The notes below the pieces were generated by a model that was given only the letters and a program-made list of their open reading frames with translations, was not told the origin of the DNA and ran no database searches. DNA of 64,000 nt, taken from positions 620,001-684,000 of the forward strand of contig JAJEKV010000215.1 in the NCBI GenBank assembly GCA_021234155.1, given 5' to 3'. Position 1 is the first letter of the stretch. Every line of letters begins with the position of its first letter. This DNA comes from Isoetes taiwanensis. Taxonomy: Eukaryota; Streptophyta; Lycopodiopsida; Isoetales; Isoetaceae. Below, one piece after another: positions 18,674 to 61,296 of this stretch. The translations under genes and the position numbers were made by a program.

Positions 18674-19719
18674 TTGTTTAAAGTCATGTAGATTTTCCTC
18701 AATGTCAACAAGGTCAAAGTCAGTATCTCTAGCACTCTCCAAAGCTCTTCGGTATGGGTTCATGAAAACTTTTGGAACTTCTCCATTATCATCTTTGTTT
18801 CCAACGAGGACTATGTCATCATTAATAGAAACTGTTTTTCATAATGTACAAGAAATAATAAAAGAAATAAACTATTTTTCGCTAAAGGGTACTTCGATAG
18901 ACTGTGCCCACTTGAACTTAGGAGGTATGTATAAGTGTTGTACGGTAACATAAAAATTGATGCTGCTGCCGAGCTCATTCGGTGAATAACACTCGTGTTG
19001 TGCAGAACTGCATAATAGGCTGCTTTAGAAGGAAGGGGCATCCTTGCAATGCAAGACAAGAGCAATTTCCTCACAAATGGAGACACGATGGCAGGCCCCT
19101 GCCGCATTGCTACGTCAAGAAATGGGTGAGAATTTTTAAGACTGGCAGAGGATCCAGAAAACAGTTCGCTTGACATCATGACAAGCAAAAGGCTGACAAG
19201 CTCAAGGTGAAGCATATAAGTATATGGATTTATATCAGAGTTTCCAATAAAACTTAGCAAAGCTTGGAGAACCAGACAAGGAACGTTCACCTCCCCACTT
19301 TGACGGCCAGTGACTGCTGCTTCATGCTCACTCACATGCAATGCAAGATTCTCCACTAGAGGTATGGTCTTTGATTGTTCAAAAAAATATTTCAATAAAA
19401 CTCGGGAGAACTGGGTAGCATTAAACACTTTCAATCCAGAGGTACGAACACCAGATGGGGCTGACGCCATCTCTTGCAGACTTCATACCAGGTGAATTAA
19501 CAGCTTTGGAAGGTGAGCAGTATCCTGATTGTTCTGAGCGAGTAGCTCAACAGCCTGTTTCTCACGCTCTGGAGACTACTGATTTGAAGGTTGTTGAGCG
19601 AGCAACTTCTGCCAGAAAATAGAGCTTAAATCATATGCACGACTACCAACAAGGGCCCCAAGCAAATGCTGACGATGCCCCTCGGGTTTTGCATCAGCTC
19701 GAGGGGTCGAAACCCCAAC
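18674..19719 (-). pseudogene. Dymeclin-like pseudogene, N-terminal part, no introns
   Basis: Dymeclin is a Golgi-associated peripheral membrane protein. Read on the minus strand from 19719, the sequence has the plant dymeclin N-terminus (STPR, then SSIFWQKLL, LLAQNN, HLPKLLIHL). It continues through LSFIGNSDINPYTYMLHLEL, PFVRKLLLSCIARMP and LFLVHYEK, then NPYRRALESARD and DFDLVDIE. This covers roughly the first 300 of about 700 residues. It is broken by TAG at 19576-19578, TGA at 19483-19485, a frameshift near 18830 and a displaced start codon. It ends abruptly near 18674 and no other dymeclin part is seen. The lack of introns suggests a retrocopy, though no poly(A) tail is found. Family assignment is from memory of conserved blocks. 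Confidence 0.75.
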
Positions 19720-22620: not shown

Positions 22621-22983
22621 TTAGAATAGCACAGAACTACCTAAAGACTGATTTGTGTCCTGGCTGGACCCATTGTCTCGAAGAACATCCATAAAAGTGG
22701 TCAGGTATTAGGTTGCAACAGCTCCTTCCTCCCTCTACTCTTCCCAAACTCGAATTTGGGGTAGAGTTGGGCTGGGAGCTCAATTTGTCACCCAAAATTG
22801 GCAACCTGCCCTTGGCCAATCGAGTCAGGCCAAGTGGCACACTCTAATTAGCCTCATTACTTGGTCTACCTAGGTTAGTTTAATGACAATAGTCCCTTTT
22901 AGGTTAATCTCCAATGGTCCCAATACCTTGGTGACGTGTCAGATTAGGTATATGTATACCGTATACTTACATGCAACGTCACA
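22621..22983 (-). repeat. Truncated 3' LTR
   Basis: On the minus strand it begins TGTGACG at 22983 and matches the 5' LTR until 22621, where similarity stops. About 1.1 kb of the LTR is lost, so no target-site duplication can be read. Confidence 0.8.
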
Positions 22984-22996
22984 TTCTACCCCCCTT
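22984..22996 (-). promoter_or_regulatory. Polypurine tract
   Basis: Minus strand AAGGGGGGTAGAA lies directly before the TGTGACG start of the 3' LTR, where plus-strand DNA synthesis of an LTR retroelement is primed. Confidence 0.75.
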
Positions 22997-23596
22997 AGGA
23001 TAATGCTGTCCTCAGCATTAAGGATCGGAGAGAGAATGATTAATAAAAGAAAGGGAGAGTAGTTACTTTATTATAAAAGATAGGAGATTACAAGAAGATC
23101 ATGAATGATCAAAGTCTCGGACCTGAGTCTTTTCACACCATAACTTAGAATACTTATTATGCATAACAACAAGGTCCTTAGTGGACCGTAAGGAACAAGA
23201 TAAAACACAACATGACTCGTAAGGTGAGTCGTCAGAAAACTGCAGATGCCGCTGGATGCACTACACACCTGCAGGATTACAGTACATCAGTACTCAAGAT
23301 AATTATATAAAGTTGTGGTTGAAAGGACCACCCCCTTTATATACAAAAGAGAAAATGGAAATGAAGGAATCCTATAATGCCTAGGGCTTGCAAGTCATCG
23401 CGGCATAAGAAATGGCAATGTTCCTATTTTAGCCGTAGACGGTTGCGTCCTAATATGCCTAAATGCAATTCCCCCTGTCCTAGGATGCGTCTACCCCAAG
23501 CCTCTTGCATGATCCCTGTCAGATCTACTGCACAACTACATACCATTGGAGTCGGGGTCGATAGCATCATGGATGGTCCGACCCTGGCATTGTCGC
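22997..23596 (-). other. Element 3' untranslated region
   Basis: Between the end of the chromodomain and the polypurine tract. No coding signal is recognised. Confidence 0.4.
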
Positions 23597-24222
23597 ATGA
23601 AATCGGGGTAGGTCTTGTCAAGATCTTGTTTAAGCACCCAAGTGGCATCCTCATTAGGCAAGTGTTTCTACTTAACTAAATACTGCAATATCTGCGTTCT
23701 TCTCGTTTGTTTATATGCTCTATCGAGAAGAGCTTCTGGAACAATTTCCAACTGCTCGTCTGTCATCTCCAGGGATGTCAAGAATCTCATGAGGATCCGG
23801 GGTATGCTTCTTCAAAAGGCTTACATGAAAGACTTTATGTACTTTAAGATGAGCAGGTAAATTCAACTTATAGGCTTGAGAACCTATATGTTCAATGATG
23901 TGAAATGGTCCTGCCCATCGTGGCGCCAGTTTCTTGCAATTTCCAATCTTGAGCTTGGCCTGCTTCACTTTGATTTTCAACCATACGGAATCACCAACCT
24001 GGAACTCACGGAGGTACGATGTCTATCTGCTAAACTCTTTTAGCGACTTCGTGCTGCCAATAGATACTCGCGTACTTCCTCAACCAAAACTTGCATATCT
24101 GTAAGCAGCTGTTGTGAAACTGCCACCTTGGAAACTGGGTTATGCCACATATCCGGAGTAAGGCACTGATAACCATAGGTGATGATAAAGGGAGACATCC
24201 TTGAAAACTCCTGTTTAGTACT
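23597..24222 (-). pseudogene. Integrase C-terminus with GPY/F module and chromodomain
   Basis: Minus strand from 24222: an SPF..TYGYQCLTP phrase typical of gypsy integrase, a ....ADRHR region, then LAPRWAGPFHIIEHIG, LPAHLKVHKVFHVSLLKKH (GPY/F module). The chromodomain at 23735-23597 contains RTQILQYLVKKHLPNEDATW. In chromoviruses this domain is thought to guide integration to modified histone H3. Frameshifts and stops occur near 24035 and 23755. Upstream of 24222 the catalytic integrase core and RT are missing, with a sharp break into unrelated sequence. Family-level identification is firm; the protein is not functional. Confidence 0.82.
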
Positions 24223-24639
24223 ATTATAGGTATACTAGGGTTGGATTTATAATTAAAAGATTAAATAAGTCGTTCATCGCTCCATAAAGTTGCCACAGAT
24301 GATCGTCAATATCGTGGAAGGCGTCTACATTGGTGGACTCCCAATAGTCCCAACCCCTCTGCATCTTGCATTGTAAGTTACGGGCGGCTTTGTCCTGAAG
24401 GAGCATGACAATTTCCCACCCGTTGGCGGAGTGCTGTGGTAAGGTTGCCCCTGTAACAGGCGGTGGAGAAGATAATTAATAATTCGAGGCGCTACGTATG
24501 AATGATCAGTAAGGAAAAAGGACAATCAATACAATAGAACTATAGTTTGTATTGATAAATCGACACAAAATTGCCTATATGAGTAATACATATAAGAATA
24601 GCCAAAGGCCAAGCAATAAAAACCAAAAATTATGCTCAG
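24223..24639 (-). other. Unrecognised coding-like stretch between integrase and ORF-B
   Basis: Minus-strand frames at 24525-24325 and 24406-24224 look like one reading frame split by a shift (phrase RGWDYWESTNVDAFHDID). No family is recognised. It may be the end of ORF-B's transcript or a third ORF. Confidence 0.35.
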
Positions 24640-26039
24640 GAACTAGGTCCTGCATCCTGATCCATGTCTGTCGGAGGCTCTGGTGGTTGTCGTTGTCGGA
24701 GCAAGGCGACACCAGGGCTGATCGTGAGGGCGACTGCTGATGCAATTGCGGGAGGGAAGGCAATAACCAATGGTGCGGCTACAAGCATCTTCATGCTCAT
24801 TCAGGCGGCGATATCCTGGCCTAATGCAGCAAGTGCTAAATCCCGATTTATAAGCACCACATCATGAAGATTGGAGGGGAGCTTTCTATGTCCGGCCATA
24901 GCGGACAAGGCCTTTATTGCCCAAAAAGATGCCTCGGCCTCTGGAGCGACCGCTCTAGCAAAGAATAGCACATGACCTTGACGGAAAGCTGAGAGGAAGA
25001 ACCTTGTGAGATGGTTCTTCAGGGCTACCACCTCCGGATCTGTGGAGGTTGCCGCTTTTGCCTCAAGGTTGACGGTAATCTGCTCCTCGTCGGCTTCTTC
25101 CTTCTCCTCTTTGAGATGCTCCTTGTTATCGTAGAGGTCTTCCCCTTCTTCGTCCTCGTCCATAGGTACCACCACATCATTGATGTTAGGGACATGTGGC
25201 CCCATAGCGGCAAAAGCATCTTCATGTGGGGGACGAGGAGGATCTTGTAGCATGAGATGTTGCAACTCCAGCAAGGTTTCGACATGTTCTAAATCCTCTC
25301 AATGGAACCTAAGCAACTGCTGGATCTGTGGGGGGTACTCAGGAGGTGAAAAATCAATAAAATCCCCTTGACAGTGTTCGGTTAACTCGTACAAAATAAG
25401 GTCTTTTCTCATAGCCCGAGAATCGGCGATTACATTGTACGCCCACAAAATGTCATCAAGTAGCAGGTACTCTTGATTATTGAGAAGAATTATAGGGAGT
25501 CCATCTAGTCCGGCGAGCTTGCGGCCCTGAGTCCGGGGCATGGGCAGTTCGGTGGCGACTCTGACGAGTTGCTTCCAACGATTAAAATCTGTGTGGCTTA
25601 TCCGCTCATCCTCTTCGGGATCATCAGGAATAGGTACCTTCCCCTTTTCCAATGGAGTGGAGTCAGCCTCCACATATTGGTCCATGAGAATGGCCAAAGC
25701 AAAGCAGACCTCAAAGTAAGTCTGTTGGCGGCCAAGTTGGAGAATGGGGGCATGCTTGGCACGACGCTGAATGCCTCGAAGAGTATCCTCGGCATGGCGG
25801 TGCGGTCATCACCGAGCATCAGCATGAGTATGTCCCTGTGAAGATAAAGCTGTGGAGGATCGCCATAAGGTCGGCATTGGGGCACCATTTCTTGGGTGTA
25901 GAACTCCAAGAAATCGGCATAATCAGGATGAGCCTCCATATTTGTTATGATGTAGATAAGGGTGGAGAAGCTCAAATGGGACGTGAGAATCCCAGTGCTC
26001 TCCATCCTGGTACCACTGCTGGCGCTTGTCATAATCCAT
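24640..26039 (-). pseudogene. ORF-B: unknown protein with long acidic segment
   Basis: Starts at a minus-strand ATG at 26039 (MDYDKRQQWYQDGEHW) and runs to about 24640, roughly 460 codons. Frameshifts lie near 25960 and 25720, with stops at 25301-25299 and 24803-24801. The better preserved part, 25697-24801, is rich in charged and aromatic residues. At about 25160-25060 it has a strongly acidic run (MDEDEEGEDLYDNKEHLKEE and more Glu/Asp). No gag, protease or RT motif is visible, so it could be a diverged gag or a captured host gene. Acidic tracts are common in histone chaperones, and the neighbour is a histone-fold ORF; a functional link is inference only. Confidence 0.5.
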
Positions 26040-26322
26040 AGCAGTTTGTTGAAAGGAGGAGGAGCGAAAATAGAGGAGGCTAAACAACAATGAAATCCTA
26101 AAAAGTAGGGGCACTTTTAAAAGAGATGGGGCTTTTATTAGGGAATATTTCTTAAGGTCTGTACTTTATCATTAATATTAATATAGTTTTTCTTTTTTTA
26201 TTGAACTCGAGCTTTGTGTGTGTTGTTTGCATCAGGGAACAGACAGTAAAACACATAGCTAATGACAAGTAGCATTGTATTAATACAAAACTTAGATACA
26301 GTCATATTACAAAATGGAGGAT

Positions 26323-27449
26323 CTAGTTTCGATCCCCGCAGATCCTACGTGCTAAGGCCAAATCCTTTGGCATAATAGTCACGCGCTTAGCGTGTATTGC
26401 ACAAAGGTTGGCATCGCCAAAAAGGGCGATGAGGTAATCCTCGGCAGCTTCCTGCAGGGCAAGAATAGCATGGGTCTAGAACCTGAGATCTGTCTTAAAT
26501 TGCTGAGCAATCTCCCGGACGAGGCGCTGGAAAGGGAGCTTCCGCAAGAGGAGCTCCGACGTCTTCTGATACTTGCGGATTTCCCGCAAGGCCACTGTCC
26601 CTGGTCTGAACCGGTAGGGCTTCCTTTGACGAGGTGGGGGTACAAGGGGAAGAGTCTTGCCCCCGTGGCTGGATGTTGGGCCCGCTCGACTAAAGTCTCC
26701 CAACGAGTGTCCCCCCTGCTTTGCTACCCCACCGATCGCTTGGAGCTGAGTCTTATATTGGGGCCCCAAGCGTGTCGGGTTAGTGGTCTTCCGCTTCCGT
26801 TGTATGGTATGGTTAGCGAGCGCCTGCTCCTCAGCTAGCCGAGCTGCTTGTTGTTCGGCATGCTGCTTTCGTAACAGGCGTGCCGCAGTCCTTCTGCGGA
26901 TCTCGGTAATATACCTGTCAGGTCGGGCCGCCATATCAAGCTCGACAGACTGCAGATCCTCTTGAGATATAACTTTCCATATGAAGATCTGAGCGTCCTC
27001 ATCATAATAGTACGGGGGGTAGGATAAAATTGTTTCCCCGACTTATGGCTCTCCCTCTTCCTAGATAAACGTACTCCTGTCCTCGTATAGCCGGGTCTTC
27101 GCTTGCACGAGCATCCTCCTCCTGTGCCATTGCCATAATCCTTTCGGCGTCCCGACGAACATCCAACATCTTAGGGCATGTCCGAGGGGTAATAACGAAC
27201 AAGGGTCAGAACCTCCACCAAGGTGTAGGTCTCCCCTTCGGCATTCAGTTTCAGCAAAAATCTCTCTGTGAGATGGAAAATAGGGTATGGTATCCGGTCG
27301 CCTTCGATAAATCTCAACACTAGCTGCTCGAGGAGAAGCTCGACATTCCTAGGGCCGTCAGTTGTATCCCCAATATTGTAGCCAAGCTCGGCACAGAGTT
27401 GGAATACATTACAGGAGGAATAGCTTTTTGTGTCCTTAGTGCGGGCCAT
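26323..27449 (-). pseudogene. ORF-A: long protein ending in a complete histone H3 fold
   Basis: Minus-strand ATG at 27449 opens MARTKDTKSYSS, echoing the histone H3 start ARTKQT. About 270 codons of unrecognised sequence follow, including an Arg/Ala/Glu-rich helix-like part near 26900-26810. From about 26625 to the natural stop at 26325-26323 lies a full H3 fold: [66 protein letters not shown] and ARRICGDRN. Loop 1 has normal H3 length, unlike most CENH3. Thr-His-Ala-Ile-Leu at the 86-90 position resembles plant H3.3, while Phe at 41 resembles H3.1. Lesions: frameshifts near 27190 and 27045, TAA at 27045-27043, and TAG at 26478-26476 where H3 has Gln. Not functional here as read; other copies may be. 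Confidence 0.8.
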
Positions 27450-28056: not shown

Positions 28057-28068
28057 GCTCTGATATCA
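28057..28068 (-). promoter_or_regulatory. Primer-binding site, initiator tRNA-Met type
   Basis: Minus strand TGATATCAGAGC starts one base inside the 5' LTR. It differs by one base from the usual plant gypsy/copia site TGGTATCAGAGC. Confidence 0.82.
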
Positions 28069-28069
28069 T

Positions 28070-29531
28070 TGTGACGCTCCCCGAATCTATACGATGCTCC
28101 CATAGTATAAATACGGGAAATCCCATCTTCCATGGTGATAATACCACCATGGAAAGGCCCTCCGTCTGACTCGGACCACTTGTGATGACAAGTGTCCAGG
28201 TGAAGGACACGGGGGTGTCATTTGTTCCACGCCTTCGATGGGAATCCTAGATAGCGGAAGCATATATACAAGGTTAGCACCTGGCAACATACATGCCACC
28301 ACGAAGGGTGGCCCATCATCATCCATAAGAATGCAATAGAACACCATCATAATAATGAAATGCATCATGAATAAAGGCTCTACCCCGGCTCAGACTCATG
28401 GGAATCAACTAACAATCAGGGCCTCCAGATACAACAGACGGAATCATAACAATGGCGTTGGCTGGCATAGAACAATGGCTAGGGTAGTCCACTCCATCCG
28501 CCCCTCCTGTGCACACTTTGCAGATAGGCTGGAACATGCTATGGCGTGATTGTAGCCTTCCGGAGACGCAATCCCATGGAATCACCCTATGGAACTACTC
28601 CAGGTTATATCTCCCCGGTCCGATGAGGCAGGTCGGAGAGGCATCCCCTCCCCGAGGATGATGGATCCCTAGGTGTGCTAGAGAATACGTGCTCCCTCAG
28701 TGACCCCCGCGTTCGTACCCGACTTACTCCCCTAAATCTAAAGGCCGGCTCACCTGTCCCTTCAAGTCCAGGGCGCCCAATACTTTTGGCACGACACCTG
28801 TGACCCAGGAAGTGTCAGACCCATACCTGGCCCTCTCTGTGACCGGCTATAAGCCTAGCACACTGTAGAAGTCCTATAGCCGCGCTAGGCAAGACCCCAC
28901 CTTCGATTCACCATCATACTCGTTATCTGGTGCTGAATCACATCATAGCATCCCCAGCCAGGTGGGCTCTTGTGCACAGGGCTGCATTTACTGGGATTTA
29001 AGAGGTTCTAGCTAGGAACATCACTAAATCTAGATAGCTTTCATGTCTCTACCCCCCTTAGACCCATACAACATAGGAGGAACAAAAAGAGAAAACATAA
29101 TCAGATATAACATCCATAATCATCATAAGTAGAGCATAACAGAGAATCTAATCATACTGCTCAAACAAGAGTTAGAATAACACAGAACTACCTAAAGACT
29201 GACCTGTGTCCTGGTTGGACCCATTGTCTCGAAGAACATCCATAAAACTGGTCAGGTATTAGGTTGCAACATCTCCTTCCTCCCTCTGCTCTTCCCAAAC
29301 TCGAATTTGAGGTAGAGTTAGGCTGGGAGCTCAATTTATCACCCAAAATTGGCAACCTGTCCTTGGCCAATCGAGTCAGGCCAAGTGGCACACTCTAATT
29401 AGTCTACTTGGCTAATTAATACTATTAGTTGGTCTACCTAGGTTAGTTTAATGACAATAGTCCCTTTTAGGTTAATTTCCAATGGTGACGTGTCAGGTTA
29501 GGTATACGTATACTGTATACTGAACGTCACA
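28070..29531 (-). repeat. 5' LTR, 1462 bp
   Basis: Bounded by TGTGACG and CGTCACA (inverted 7-bp ends, TG...CA). The part at 29172-29531 matches the truncated 3' LTR. Small open frames inside it (for example 28087-28368) are not taken as genes. A TATAAATA at about 28098 is on the strand opposite to the element's transcription, so its role is unclear. Confidence 0.82.
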
Positions 29532-34913: not shown

Positions 34914-35490
34914 CATAAGGCGAGGCGAGGCAGATATCATGTTAGCTGTGGAACTGAAGCTGCTATAATTCCTGTTGGGTTAGGTGGGTTTATTGCCTGC
35001 AGAGCGCTCTCCCAAAGGACTGATGATCCACAAACTGCCTCTAGACCATGGGACAAAGACCGTGAGGGCTTTGTTATGGGCGAAGGTGCTGGCGTTCTGG
35101 TATGTTAGGAGCTGAGAGTTGCTATTCAAATATCCAGAAATCATGTAATATATTTTATCAGATGTTGGATAAGCATAATTCACATCTCATGTGTCCCTAA
35201 TGCACAAGCCATGTAGGCTAGGCAAGATATATACTCGAATTGGTTGTCACTGCATATGGCATTACCTAGGTCTAAGTATACGTGCATCAAATATTATAGT
35301 CTTACTACTGTTTGGTTCTCAATTTGCTACCCTGTTCTAACATTAAACTGAAAATTCTTATGTTGAAGGTTATGGAAAGCTTAGAACATGCAATGAAACG
35401 GGGAGCTACAATTGTAGCAGAGTACTTGGGCGGAGCTGTGACTTGTGATGCGTATCATATGATTGATCCACGTGCAGACAGGCTTGCTGA
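34914..35490 (+). pseudogene. KAS I fragment: end of exon 3, intron 3, start of exon 4
   Basis: Nearly identical to 44638-45213 of the functional KAS I gene, intron included, so it is a DNA-level copy. One G is missing near 34947 (TTAGCTGTGG against TTAGCTGGTGG), and a TATGAG to TTAGGAG change follows the donor. It lacks promoter, transit peptide, catalytic His and Lys exons. Homology stops at GCTTG near 35490, giving way to unrelated sequence with a short open frame ending at 35617. Confidence 0.9.
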
Positions 35491-43190: not shown

Positions 43191-45930
43191 ATGGCTTCCG
43201 TCCAATCCTCCTCCCTTTCCATGCTCCAATACGATGGCCTTCGTGCCTTGGATGCTTCCCCTTCTTCTTCTGGACTCCCTTCCTTCTGCCTCCCAGCTTC
43301 CCAGCCCACTTCCGGTACATTTCTTGCATTAATTACTTAGTTTCTATTGCTCTCCGTCTTTTCTCCCTTTCTTCTTATTGCATTGTACTTTGATTTTGTT
43401 AGATATGTTTGATCCATAGTTCATTTATTTGCAAACTGAAAATCTGTCAGTTGAGCTGCTTTTAAGACTAGATTAAATATGTTACTGTTGTTAGGCGTCC
43501 CCTGCATGCTTCTGCATTCTGGGTTTTGCTCAGTAGTCTATGCAAATGCAGTTAAATTGACAATGTTGGATGCTGGATGCGGGATCTGTGCATTGACCCT
43601 GAGTGTTCCTAATGCGGATTTACTTATGTAGTCTATGTTGATTCAATCAGGAAGGAGGTATGGAGTACGAGCTATGGCTTCCGCGACAGTCTCTGCCCCA
43701 AAAAGAGAAAAGGACCCGAAAAAGAGAGTCGTCATCACTGGCATGGGCCTCGTCTCTGTATTTGGAAATGATGTCGACACATACTACGACAATCTTCTCG
43801 AAGGAAAAAGTGGTGTTGGGCTTATTGACAGATTTGATGTCTCCAAGTTTCCAACTAGATTTGCTGGACAAATAAGAAATTTCTCTTCTGAAGGCTATAT
43901 TGATGGCAAAAATGATCGGAGACTTGATGATTGTCTACGATATTGCCTTGTCAGTGGCAAAAAAGCTTTAGAGGATGCCAATCTAGGGAAAGAAAATCTT
44001 GAGAAGGTACTCAATGGTTCATGTTTCTAGCATGTTGTTCGTTAGTGTACTACATTTATTGTCTGTTTATGATGTGCTGTTATGCCTGTTAATGATATGT
44101 TGTGGTACAGTCATGTTGCATACCATTCTGTTTTTTCTTGGCAAAATGAGTAATGTGAATATAAGACCAAGAACACATTTTGCTATGTTTTTGCTATGTA
44201 TTATGTTAAGTGCTGAGATTTCTTCTAGTGCTGGATACTAATGTCTTTTTTAGGATTAAGTTGGTCTTGTTTCTTATTATGCATAACATTCATCTTCATT
44301 TTCTGCATATGCTGATGTGAATCTCTTTAATGATTAAAATGACCTTGTTTGGTTATATGTAACATTCATCTTCATAGTACCTGTTTCTGCAGATTGACAA
44401 GCAAAAAGTGGGAGTCTTAGTTGGATCAGGAATGGGAGGGCTTAGTGTCTTTTCGGATGGAGTGCAGTCCCTTATTGAGAAGGGTTATAAGAGGATTACA
44501 CCATTTTTTATACCCTATTCTATTACAAACATGGGGTCTGCTTTGCTTGGAATAGACCTAGGGCTAATGGGTCCTAACTACTCAATATCCACTGCTTGTG
44601 CGACTTCTAATTATTGCTTCTACGCTGCTGCTAACCACATAAGGCGAGGCGAGGCAGATATCATGTTAGCTGGTGGAACTGAAGCTGCTATAATTCCTGT
44701 TGGGTTAGGTGGGTTTATTGCCTGCAGAGCGCTCTCCCAAAGGAATGATGATCCACAAACTGCCTCTAGACCATGGGACAAAGACCGTGAGGGCTTTGTT
44801 ATGGGCGAAGGTGCTGGCGTTCTGGTATGTTATGAGCTGAGAGTTGCTATTCAAATATCCAGAAATCATGTAATATATTTTATCAGATGTTGGATAAGCA
44901 TAATTCACATCTCATGTGTCCCTAATGCACAAGCCATGTAGGCTAGGCAGGATATATACTCGAATTGGTTGTCACTGCATATGGCATTACCTAGGTCTAA
45001 GTATACGTGCATCAAATATTATAGTCTTACTACTGTTTGGTTCTCAATTTGCTACCCTGTTCTAACATTAAACTGAAAATTCTTGTGTTGAAGGTTATGG
45101 AAAGCTTAGAACATGCAATGAAACGGGGAGCTACAATCGTAGCAGAGTACTTGGGCGGAGCTGTGACTTGTGATGCGTATCATATGACTGATCCACGTGC
45201 AGACGGGCTTGGTGTTTCTTCATGTATACTTAAGAGCCTTGAAGATGCTGGTGTTGCACCAGAGGAGGTAGGCTCTCATGAGCAGTAGCTTTAGGTTGTT
45301 TTATAGAAATTAACATCTTATAACTTAATTTCTCAGGTAAACTACATCAATGCGCATGCAACTTCTACTGTTGTAGGCGACCTTGCAGAGGTGAATGCAG
45401 TAAAAAAGGTCTTTAAGGACACACAAGAAGTGAAAATCAATTCCACAAAGGTGACTTAAAATTTAAACAAGAAATTTTTACTGTTCTTGCTTTTGCCTTT
45501 TGAACCTCACAGTTTGGTCTTGCTAGTGCAGTCTATGATAGGTCATTGTTTAGGAGCCGCTGGAGGGCTAGAGGCAATAGCTACAATCAAGGCTATCACA
45601 ACTGGATGGGTCCATCCTACTATTAACCAATTCGTAAGTAAAATGCTTGTGTCAATAATAATAGAATCGTCTGAATTTGCTCAGTAAAATGCTTGTGTCA
45701 ATAATAATAGAATCGTCTGAATTTGTTCAGAATCCTGAGCCTGCTGTTACATTTGACACTATTCCAAATGTGAAAAAACAACATGAAGTTCATGTTGGTA
45801 AGTTTTGTATTTTATGCGAAGATTGTAACCAGCTTATAACGTTGTTCTATTTGTTGACTCAGGCATATCAAATTCGTTTGGATTTGGGGGGCATAACTCG
45901 GTTGTAGTTTTCGCCCCTTTTAGTCCTTAG
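43191..45930 (+). CDS. KAS1: 3-oxoacyl-[acyl-carrier-protein] synthase I, plastid (8 exons)
   Basis: Condenses malonyl-ACP with acyl-ACP, extending C4 to C16 chains in plastid fatty acid synthesis. Exons: 43191-43314, 43651-44006, 44393-44824, 45094-45267, 45337-45450, 45532-45633, 45731-45797 and 45863-45930. Total 1437 nt, 478 residues, the size of plant KAS I. A Ser-rich transit peptide occupies about 1-50; the core starts [16 protein letters not shown]. Active-site Cys229 lies in STACATSNY, His369 in NAHATST, Lys400 in NSTK and His405 in [11 protein letters not shown]. The C-terminal glycine loop is [16 protein letters not shown] rather than KAS II is chosen from the N-terminal and exon 3 sequence. 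Frame intact. Intron 6 carries a tandem copy of its own 3' end. An upstream in-frame ATG at 43152 is less likely because it falls in the leader. Confidence 0.94.
45639..45730 (+). repeat. 46-bp tandem duplication of a splice acceptor
   Basis: The last 46 bp of KAS I intron 6 (45685-45730) duplicate 45639-45684. Both copies end in a TTTG(C/T)TCAG acceptor. Using the first would add a TAA immediately, so the second is the functional one. Confidence 0.85.
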
Positions 45931-59018: not shown

Positions 59019-61296
59019 TAAAGAATAGAATAGAATAAGAATAGATTTTTAGCGTCCACGGAGACCAATTGGCCTATGGGACCCAAACAAAAAAGAGAGC
59101 AACAAGCGTATTACTGACAGGATTAAAAAACCCCCACCCCGAAGGGTTTTTGAGGGAAAAACCTTAGCAGTAATAAGTATGCTGGCACGCTGTACAATTG
59201 TATAGGACAGTTCAATACCGAGGACACAAATGAGTCCGTGCATCCATAAGCTCCTGGAGGTAAGACCCCAACGAACCTACTGACGCCGTAGTCAATAACT
59301 AATGCAATGACTGGCCAGGCACTAGTAATTGAACACATCGCTCTCGGATATAGGCAAATGCTGGGCAGATCTGGAGGGAATGACATTCATCCTCAATGGC
59401 GCCCTGGTGGCAACACTGGCAAAGCCTTTGCTCTCGTGCTTCCCGAGCCCAACGCCCTGTTTCAATGCGGAGGCGATGTGCACCCGTGCGAATGGAAGCT
59501 ATAAGTCTGCGCTTCTTCATGGCAGCTGGGTGTACAAGTACTGGTGTGGGCCTCTTGTGAGCCTAGGATTGACTTGCTGCGGATAGTGTGCCAGCTTAAC
59601 GTGCGTCAGAGCATCTGCATCCCAGAGCTTGCGAAAGAAAGTAGCATCTAGGTACAGCTTAAGTGCCTTGCGATCTTTCTTTGTCCTGACTTGGACGCAT
59701 CTGTTTGCCTGCACACCCCAGCATGAGAACCACTGAGCTTGCTTGTCTTTCCAACAGGATTTCAGGCGTTGGGGACCCATCGCCATGGCCAAAGCAAGGT
59801 GGGGCAAGCGTGTATCAGCCATAGCGACTACCTTTTGGAAGTAAACGATATGGCGTTCCAATGCAGCCCGTTGAAGGGGTAGAAAGCCTGTCTCCTAGAG
59901 TAGGATCTGGTATGGAACTGTGGACTTCACCCCCAGAGCCCGTGCCAAGAAGGCCTTCTGCACCTGCTCGAGATCATTCCAGGTGTTGAGGGATATCGCC
60001 GGACCCCACACTTCTGCCCCATACAAAAGGACCGGCTCGAACAAGGCCCAAAACAAGTGTGACTGATGGCCCCAGGCACACAACTCTACCTTGTAGCTGT
60101 TGTTCTGCATGGCATATAGTGCTTTCCAACCCGCCATGACCCGCAACCTGATGGCAGCATCCCAATGGGTGGACTCGATCCCCAAGTACTTGTAGGTCGG
60201 AGCCACCTCTACCTCTTGTCCCTGGTAAGTGAATGAGGGAAGCCTTGGCTGACGGGATGATGCAACTAGCAGCACCCTAGTTTTGGCCAAGTTAACTCGC
60301 ATGCCAGTGAATTGGCAAAAAGTGTCAAGAGCATCCAGGTGACGTTGCATGTCCTCTGGAGTATAGGCCAGGAGGTTGACATCGTCAGCATATATGAGTT
60401 GTCGGATTGTGTGATGCATGAGATGTGCACCCGCACCTCCATGCTCAGAGAGCCAATCTTCCAGTTGATCAATGTATAGGCCAAAGAGCGTGGGGGAGAG
60501 GGGGCAACCCTGACGCACTCTAATGCTGACCGACACATTTGCGGCCGACGATGTGATACGGCCTGAGCATGCCTCGTATAGCCTATATACTGCATTCTGC
60601 AAGTCAATGGGGGTCCCCAGCTGCCGCAATCTGTCCCATAGCTTGTCACGGGGCACTATGTCAAAAGCTTTTGCAAAATCCACGAAACAACAATGACGAG
60701 TTTGCTGGCGATTCACGCTATCTTCAATCAATGTGCGCAGAGTGAAGATACGATCAATGGTGGAGTGGCTGGGCCGGAAACCTGCCTGTGTAAGAGCTCG
60801 CACATCCGTTTCTCCTGCCCATATTGTCACATTTGCTCAAGGATGCCGATACCAGCGGTTACGCAAAAGAGAGCAGACCATGTAAGTACGGTAGTTGGCC
60901 GGTCATTGAGGGTCCCTTGCTTTGTATATGGGCACAACTCTACTAGTGGTCCATTGCGGAGGGAATCCTTCTCGCAATGCTTTATTGAACAATGCCGTGA
61001 GGGCGAGGCACGATGGAGGCCCGACCCATTTGAAGTTACTGCCTGCATGCCATCTAAATCTGCTGCCTTCCCACTAGCTAGACGTTGTAGGCCCATGATG
61101 ACATCCCCCTCTGTGATAACCAGAGCCATGCCTATCTGTGGAGGGACTGGTATCCGGCCCCCGAGCGGGTCATAAAGCTGTTGCAAGTACTGTACCCATT
61201 GCTCCGAGGTGATGTTCCCTGTGGGCTGTGCAGGCTTGCTCAAGACCCTTCTCCAGAATGTCCTGGGGTGCCGATCCAGGAGACCAAACATCTGTT
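59019..61296 (-). mobile_element. LINE-M, best preserved LINE, 5' end cut
   Basis: Minus strand: 61291-60827 holds the pre-RT linker (FWRRVLSKP) and early RT blocks. The 311-codon frame 60830-59895 contains AGFRPSHSTIDRIFTLR, CFVDFAKAFDIVPRDKLWDR, RQGCPLSPTLFGLYIDQLED and the catalytic QLIYADDVNLLAY, then the thumb-like KYLGIE region. 59861-59299 carries the C-terminus with RLCQCCHQGAIEDECHSLQ. Lesions: a frameshift at about 60830, TAG near 59895 (Tyr expected), a shift near 59520, and a TAG near 59299 where the sister copy has Gln. The 3' UTR has the AAAACCC...GGGGTTTTTT hairpin and ends in a TATTC-rich tail (59019-59045). The 5' part is missing beyond the CACTA end. Confidence 0.88.

Follow-up and report, generated by a model that had tools for sequence, protein, structure and literature searches.

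Histones and captured domains in selfish elements

Histones carried by selfish elements are known from viruses, as the histone doublets of giant viruses and the H4 of bracoviruses; these likewise combine a selfish element with a histone, but they are large DNA viruses, not retroelements. In plants, retrotransposons are silenced through the modification of histone H3 on them. The Isoetes taiwanensis element described here shares with chromoviruses LTRs with TG..CA ends, an iMet-type primer-binding site, capsid, protease, reverse transcriptase (RT), RNase H, integrase, chromodomain, polypurine tract and 5 bp target site duplications (TSDs), but differs in having two extra ORFs ahead of gag, one of which has a histone H3 fold. 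Extra sense ORFs are found in other plant LTR elements, most frequently between pol and the 3' LTR, with upstream ones being mentioned (PMC7264820); the word 'histone' does not occur in the main text of that paper, nor in the main texts of the I. taiwanensis (PMC8566536) and I. sinensis (PMC10541799) genome papers. Orchid Ty3/gypsy elements carry a captured AlkB-type m6A demethylase (PMC9289625), which is also a host-like regulatory domain encoded by an additional ORF and kept across subfamilies. However, it is an enzyme, found in giant elements for which the Tat/Ogre group serves as comparison, whereas the domain reported here is a structural histone, and the chromodomain element encodes it ahead of gag. 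There was no histone-bearing LTR element among the matches listed in the open-access literature. Whilst plant LTR elements with extra ORFs or a captured RNA demethylase are known, we found no description of a histone H3 cargo, which appears to be new and is surprising.

A decayed element encoding an H3 fold

The window, the whole 64,000 nt stretch of DNA analysed, contains on its minus strand an element with the order LTR, primer site, ORF1, ORF2, integrase tail with chromodomain, polypurine tract and truncated LTR. The 5' LTR (28070..29531), which runs from TGTGACG to GCGTCACA, was delimited through blastn and tblastx similarity to the LTRs of two related loci, L028 and L029, with its ends read by eye. 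One base past the LTR is the primer-binding site TGATATCAGAGC (28057..28068, read from the sequence), identical to TGGTATCAGAGC at 11 of 12 bases. The ORF1 relic (26323..27449), open in other copies, consists of a novel N-domain, a basic linker and an H3 fold; it starts at 27449 (MARTKDTKS...) and ends in ...ARRICGDRN, with a stop at 26323-26325, the H3 alphaN and histone fold with this terminal stop occupying 26323..26616. The initial annotation, made from the window sequence alone, had proposed such a fold on this strand, and the core is indeed 79.4% identical to host canonical H3 over 97 residues; contrary to its reading of a complete fold, however, the frame is not open, there being an in-frame stop at 26476-26478. 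ORF1 as a whole changes frame twice, which splits it over three frames, and of its aligned stretches the first and the last contain stops.

The ORF2 relic (24640..26078), representing a conserved protein, was recognised by tblastx to ORF2 of L028 and L020, and between it and the integrase tail is a stretch that follows ORF2 in other copies too. The C-terminal tail of the integrase (23540..24236, tblastx to positions 803-1514 of L029) includes a chromodomain match at 23632-23760, with one stop inside and 86% identity to the chromodomain of L031; the placement of the fold between a primer site and an integrase/chromodomain tail, as originally suggested, is thus borne out. The polypurine tract AAGGGGGGTAGAA (22984..22996) has AAGGAGGGGAGAA at the equivalent place in L029, and the truncated 3' LTR remnant (22621..22983) is 86.5% identical to the 5' LTR over about 350 bp (22621-22967 against 29172-29521). 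In tblastx comparisons with other copies, the leader, ORF1, ORF2 and integrase tail keep their order and strand. Gag, protease, RT and RNase H are all missing from the window copy, which is a dead, decayed relic.

Other features of the window include an exon-like ORF of a dymeclin gene at 18814-19470 on the minus strand (PF09742, E 4.8e-26) and a beta-ketoacyl synthase exon at 44408-44941 on the plus strand (PF00109), part of which (44673-44972) is repeated at 99% identity about 9.7 kb upstream (34948-35247). Two sets of direct repeats of about 2.2-2.5 kb, many copies of which are 92-99% alike, are found at 30-43 kb and 8.8-15.7 kb, and an RT ORF (RVT_1) at 59895-60830 on the minus strand belongs to a second, seemingly non-LTR, element.

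A family of H3-encoding elements in the genome

The Pfam histone model, searched against the genome (1,658,258,908 bases in 1110 contigs), picked out 8705 candidates in a first look without scoring; scores were then computed for the best 150, all of which matched. Fifteen of these cover the model from position 2, and the seven that were read (L001-L007) are canonical H3. The other 135 have open frames of 108-494 residues, and their matches begin at model positions 4-25; 20 of these loci, picked for the length of their frames and for high H3 scores, were fetched, and every one has the fusion of N-domain and H3. A separate genome search with the N-domain found 2826 candidates, and each of the 150 that were scored matched at E < 1e-85.

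The recurrent order is LTR, iMet-type primer site, ORF1, ORF2 and gag-pol with chromodomain. ORF1 encodes an N-domain of ~210 residues (its start being lost in five copies), a variable Q/N-rich linker, a basic stretch and the H3 fold, with which the protein ends in 19 of 20 cases (L016 has 22 further residues). The initial annotation had called for copies without stops, and 15 of the 20 are open from the start methionine through the fold. Its proposal that H3 is a gene of the element, with many copies sharing LTR, primer site and ORF1, also holds: an LTR homologous to that of L028 lies 5' of ORF1 at all fetched loci except L018 (19/20), and TGGTATCAGAGC, which we take to be of the tRNA-iMet type, follows the LTR exactly at 15, with one mismatch in L025; among the 20 it was not found in L011, L018, L020 and L022. 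ORF2 is present, whole or in part, in 19 copies, being absent from L013, and Gag-Pol then follows in many.

ORF3 of L028 encodes a Ty3 capsid, protease, RT and RNase H, and the integrase is found in L029, the continuation of L028, giving the order Gag-PR-RT-RNaseH-IN, with which L031 agrees from RT onwards. The capsid is ordinary, and a zinc-knuckle match in gag-pol is below the cut-off. L031 spans RT to chromodomain (PF00385, 27.2 bits against a cut-off of 25.1) and is the stretch after L014, which may be a different copy. No Pfam chromodomain was reported in the broken frame of L029, but stretches of the L031 type were found in L013 (95%), L029 (partial) and the window (86%), such that L013 and the window each have chromodomain and H3 in one copy.

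A partner LTR was sought at six loci, those with a fetched downstream stretch, and found at three. Complete insertions with TG..CA LTR ends and a 5 bp TSD account for two of the six: L028/L029 (LTR K2P 0.0225, TSD GTGGC) and L013/L032 (LTR K2P 0.031, TSD CAATC). No partner LTR was within reach of the fetched downstream stretch of L011, L014 or L020. L009 with L030 forms an LTR-internal-LTR-internal-LTR array, as if recombined from two copies.

Sampling without reference to H3

A pattern of 35 bases spanning LTR end, primer site and leader, allowing up to two mismatches, was found at 884 sites in the genome (445 and 439), and its reversed control at none. Twenty junctions were taken at steps of five from 100 listed exact matches, with L028 swapped out, and 1.6 kb downstream of each was read. 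H3 was found downstream of 12, the N-domain without H3 downstream of three, and neither downstream of five. One of these five, L038, has gag directly after the junction and is placed next to L024, among the H3-bearing elements, in the gag tree (0.994); it has therefore lost ORF1. The remaining four have no match among the 20 loci fetched first. Hence not every copy needs ORF1. L038, which lacks both ORF1 and ORF2, and L013, which lacks ORF2, provide natural material for testing the role of the accessory genes.

This sample exposed a further subfamily, C, the proteins of which start MANTK... Its N-domain is about 33-36% identical to that of L028, and its H3, in the better-preserved copies, about 82-86%; L043 and L044 are at 56-60% because their first half is decayed. 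Pieces of the window N-domain are 37-45% identical to those of other copies. On the basis of these comparisons there are at least four subfamilies: A (L028-like), B (L020), C and that of the window.

Selection on the element genes

Values of dN/dS are pairwise medians (Nei-Gojobori), calculated after dropping frames with stops and pairs that were saturated or had dS <= 0.05. In the long-frame set, H3 has a dN/dS of 0.036 (20 copies, 168 of 190 pairs), alongside 0.036 for capsid (8 copies), 0.045 for protease (6), 0.038 for RT (5), 0.029 for RNase H (9) and 0.046 for integrase (5), with 0.09-0.10 for ORF2 (14-16 copies) and 0.12 for the N-domain (18 copies). The way in which these 20 copies were picked lowers dN/dS; in the sample drawn blind to H3, H3 is at 0.082 (36 of 55 pairs from 11 copies) and the N-domain at 0.12-0.16. 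The constraint on the element H3 is thus about equal to that on the replication enzymes in the long-frame set, and weaker yet still strong in the H3-blind set. Purifying selection on the fold is strong, whilst the N-domain and linker diverge faster. Since many copies have the domain and selection acts on it, the element is an LTR retrotransposon with a captured host domain.

Features of the element H3

The H3 of L028 has a complete alphaN and histone fold (PF00125, 144 bits; PDB H3 chains, E 7e-50). Across 21 copies, the 97-residue core is 79.4-87.6% identical to the host H3, a likeness to plant H3.1/H3.3, the window being at the lower bound; 58 of the 97 positions are the same as in host H3 in every copy. 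The invariant residues include R40, R52, R69, R72, R83 and R116, which we take to be DNA-facing, whereas changes at R42, R49 and R63 are confined to single copies. The element H3 retains in detail the residues through which H3 contacts H4, DNA and chaperones. T107A, a difference from plant H3.1/H3.3, is found in all 21 copies, E105 is replaced in all and G102 in 20, and S87, at what we assume to be the site discriminating H3.1 and H3.3 chaperones, is replaced by F in 19 and by H in two (L020 and the window). The replacements at S87, G102 and E105 could alter contacts with chaperones or H4.

A FastTree phylogeny of 83 H3 sequences (21 from elements, two from the host and 60 from database matches to ORF1) places the element sequences in one clade (support 0.954) with no other H3 inside it. 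This supports the capture inferred in the initial annotation, as a single and probably ancient event, and gives H3 one origin among the copies compared. Like the element protein, CENH3 has an H3 fold with a long, divergent N-terminus, but it carries an insertion in loop 1. The element loop 1 aligns to host H3 without gaps and so is of ordinary H3 length; hence the element H3 is not CENH3-like, and capture of a CENH3 was rejected.

The ORF1 N-terminus

Open copies differ from plant H3.1/H3.3 in having some 300 or more residues before the core. The canonical set of H3 tail motifs (ARTK, ARKS at K9 and ARKS at K27) is not present in these: ARKS occurs in none of the 20 ORF1s first read, compared with two sites in each of the seven host H3s read. 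RKS is found in other contexts in four of the 20, for instance PRKSGAQYK in L020, and one member of subfamily C, L057, has a single ARKS (VARKSGSQYK) ahead of the fold. Loss of the motif is not universal, therefore, which weakens the case for an H3 blind to silencing marks.

An HP(S/T)TGGK-like stretch and KPHR are kept in most of the 20 ORF1s, and ARTK-like starts remain. The view that the N-terminus is unlike an H3 tail stands as regards the long novel N-domain, but not as regards its beginning: the window MARTKDT matches the host MARTKQT at six of seven residues, and other copies at three to five. The probability of five of six matches after the methionine is about 2e-6 under random draws from the residues of the window N-domain. 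It is plausible that a whole H3 was captured, with its tail later being opened by a long insertion.

No relative of the N-domain was found among 1854 database candidates. With full ORF1 as the query, 4516 of 8000 scored proteins match, and the best local alignments of the 120 listed extend over 21-43% of ORF1; the seven of these inspected have two or more histone copies each and no N-domain. In the AlphaFold model of ORF1, residues 131-220 of the N-domain have fair pLDDT values of 71-89, and the H3 part, modelled from a shallow alignment without its H4 partner, low values of about 28-43. A Foldseek comparison of the model with solved folds gave no match at E <= 0.001 among 130 at E <= 10.

ORF2

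ORF2 has no significant Pfam or PDB match and no relative among the 8000 database candidates scored; searches of Pfam and PHROGs with ORF2 and the ORF1 N-domain gave nothing over the cut-off, the best E values (0.22-3.8) being at chance level. Its conserved C-terminus has an H3-like loop-2/helix-3 pattern (residues 341-410 in L022; 24801-25040 on the minus strand of the window, VVLINRDLALA). When compared with H3 by hhalign, only this stretch aligned, at a non-significant E of 0.027-0.45, and comparisons with H4 and H2A aligned other stretches (E 0.21 and 0.52). A histone fold in ORF2 thus lacks statistical support. The structure model of ORF2 (pLDDT 30) is unusable.

Possible origins and roles of the element H3

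The broken window copy, on its own, would permit an insertion nested by chance, or a chimeric gene of the host that hitchhikes with an LTR. Across the genome either is extremely improbable: the join of H3 to the LTR, which the initial annotation held to be decisive if confined to this locus, recurs in 19 of the 20 fetched copies and at 12 of the 20 sampled junctions, and selection on H3 equals that on pol. Nested insertion was rejected on this linkage and on the 884 junctions against none in the control, and a host chimeric gene on the TSDs GTGGC and CAATC.

For the function of the protein, the evidence seems to us about evenly balanced for and against an ancient H3 capture having given rise to a nucleosome-competent variant that is used against silencing. 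A host H3 would have been taken up once by an ancestral chromodomain Ty3/gypsy element to form the C-terminal end of ORF1, which lies between primer site and gag and is an accessory gene; at least four diverged subfamilies would have retained it since. The ORF1 protein would pair with host H4 via host H3 chaperones and enter nucleosomes, which would be most useful on the chromatin of the element itself; most copies would there lack the K9 and K27 contexts for the marks of transposon silencing, and the protruding N-domain would form a tail through which other proteins of the element could be recruited. Retention of the full fold and the DNA-facing arginines argues for assembly into real nucleosomes or tetramers, and the fact that most copies have lost the ARKS contexts suggests avoidance of silencing marks. 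Against this stand the ARKS of L057, the low model confidence of the H3 part, the replacements at S87, G102 and E105, and the copies that do without ORF1. DDM1 promotes the replacement of H3.3 by H3.1 in plants (PMC10529913), and therefore an H3 supplied by the element could interfere at that step.

Ranked by likelihood, anti-silencing incorporation would come before targeting, with packaging and decoy functions lower. Integration targeting is possible, if rather unlikely: ORF1 would enter nucleosomes through replication- or transcription-coupled deposition and its N-domain would dock Gag or the integrase complex, directing new insertions to particular chromatin, whether in addition to the reading of H3 marks by the chromodomain or in its place. 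The N-domain and H3 form a single protein, the same copies have a chromodomain (by Pfam, on L031), and chromodomains steer integration into heterochromatin (PMC9289625), but no interaction between the N-domain and integrase is known. We are doubtful of a fuller scheme in which the element makes its own nucleosome, the H3 variant on its chromatin blocking H3K9/K27 methylation and working with the chromodomain integrase, and ORF2 being a degenerate histone-fold partner in an element-specific histone dimer. Packaging, in which ORF1 forms a nucleoprotein that compacts the RNA or cDNA of the element inside the particle, would suit a basic, histone-bearing protein encoded ahead of gag; it is improbable, given that the ordinary capsid is kept, together with the below-cut-off zinc-knuckle match, and that the presumed H3 contact residues are preserved in detail beyond the need of a generic DNA binder. 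The changes at residue 87 could point to a soluble decoy that always stays outside nucleosomes and titrates away H3 chaperones or modifiers, yet such a protein need not keep the six arginines invariant in all 21 copies, and we regard this as quite improbable.

If anti-silencing incorporation is true, an H3 of the element's own, from which the K9 and K27 contexts open to modification are mostly missing, would counter silencing directly at the nucleosome level. The family allows a test of whether a mobile element is able to alter the histones that make up its own chromatin, and offers many natural H3 variants under selection other than that of the host.
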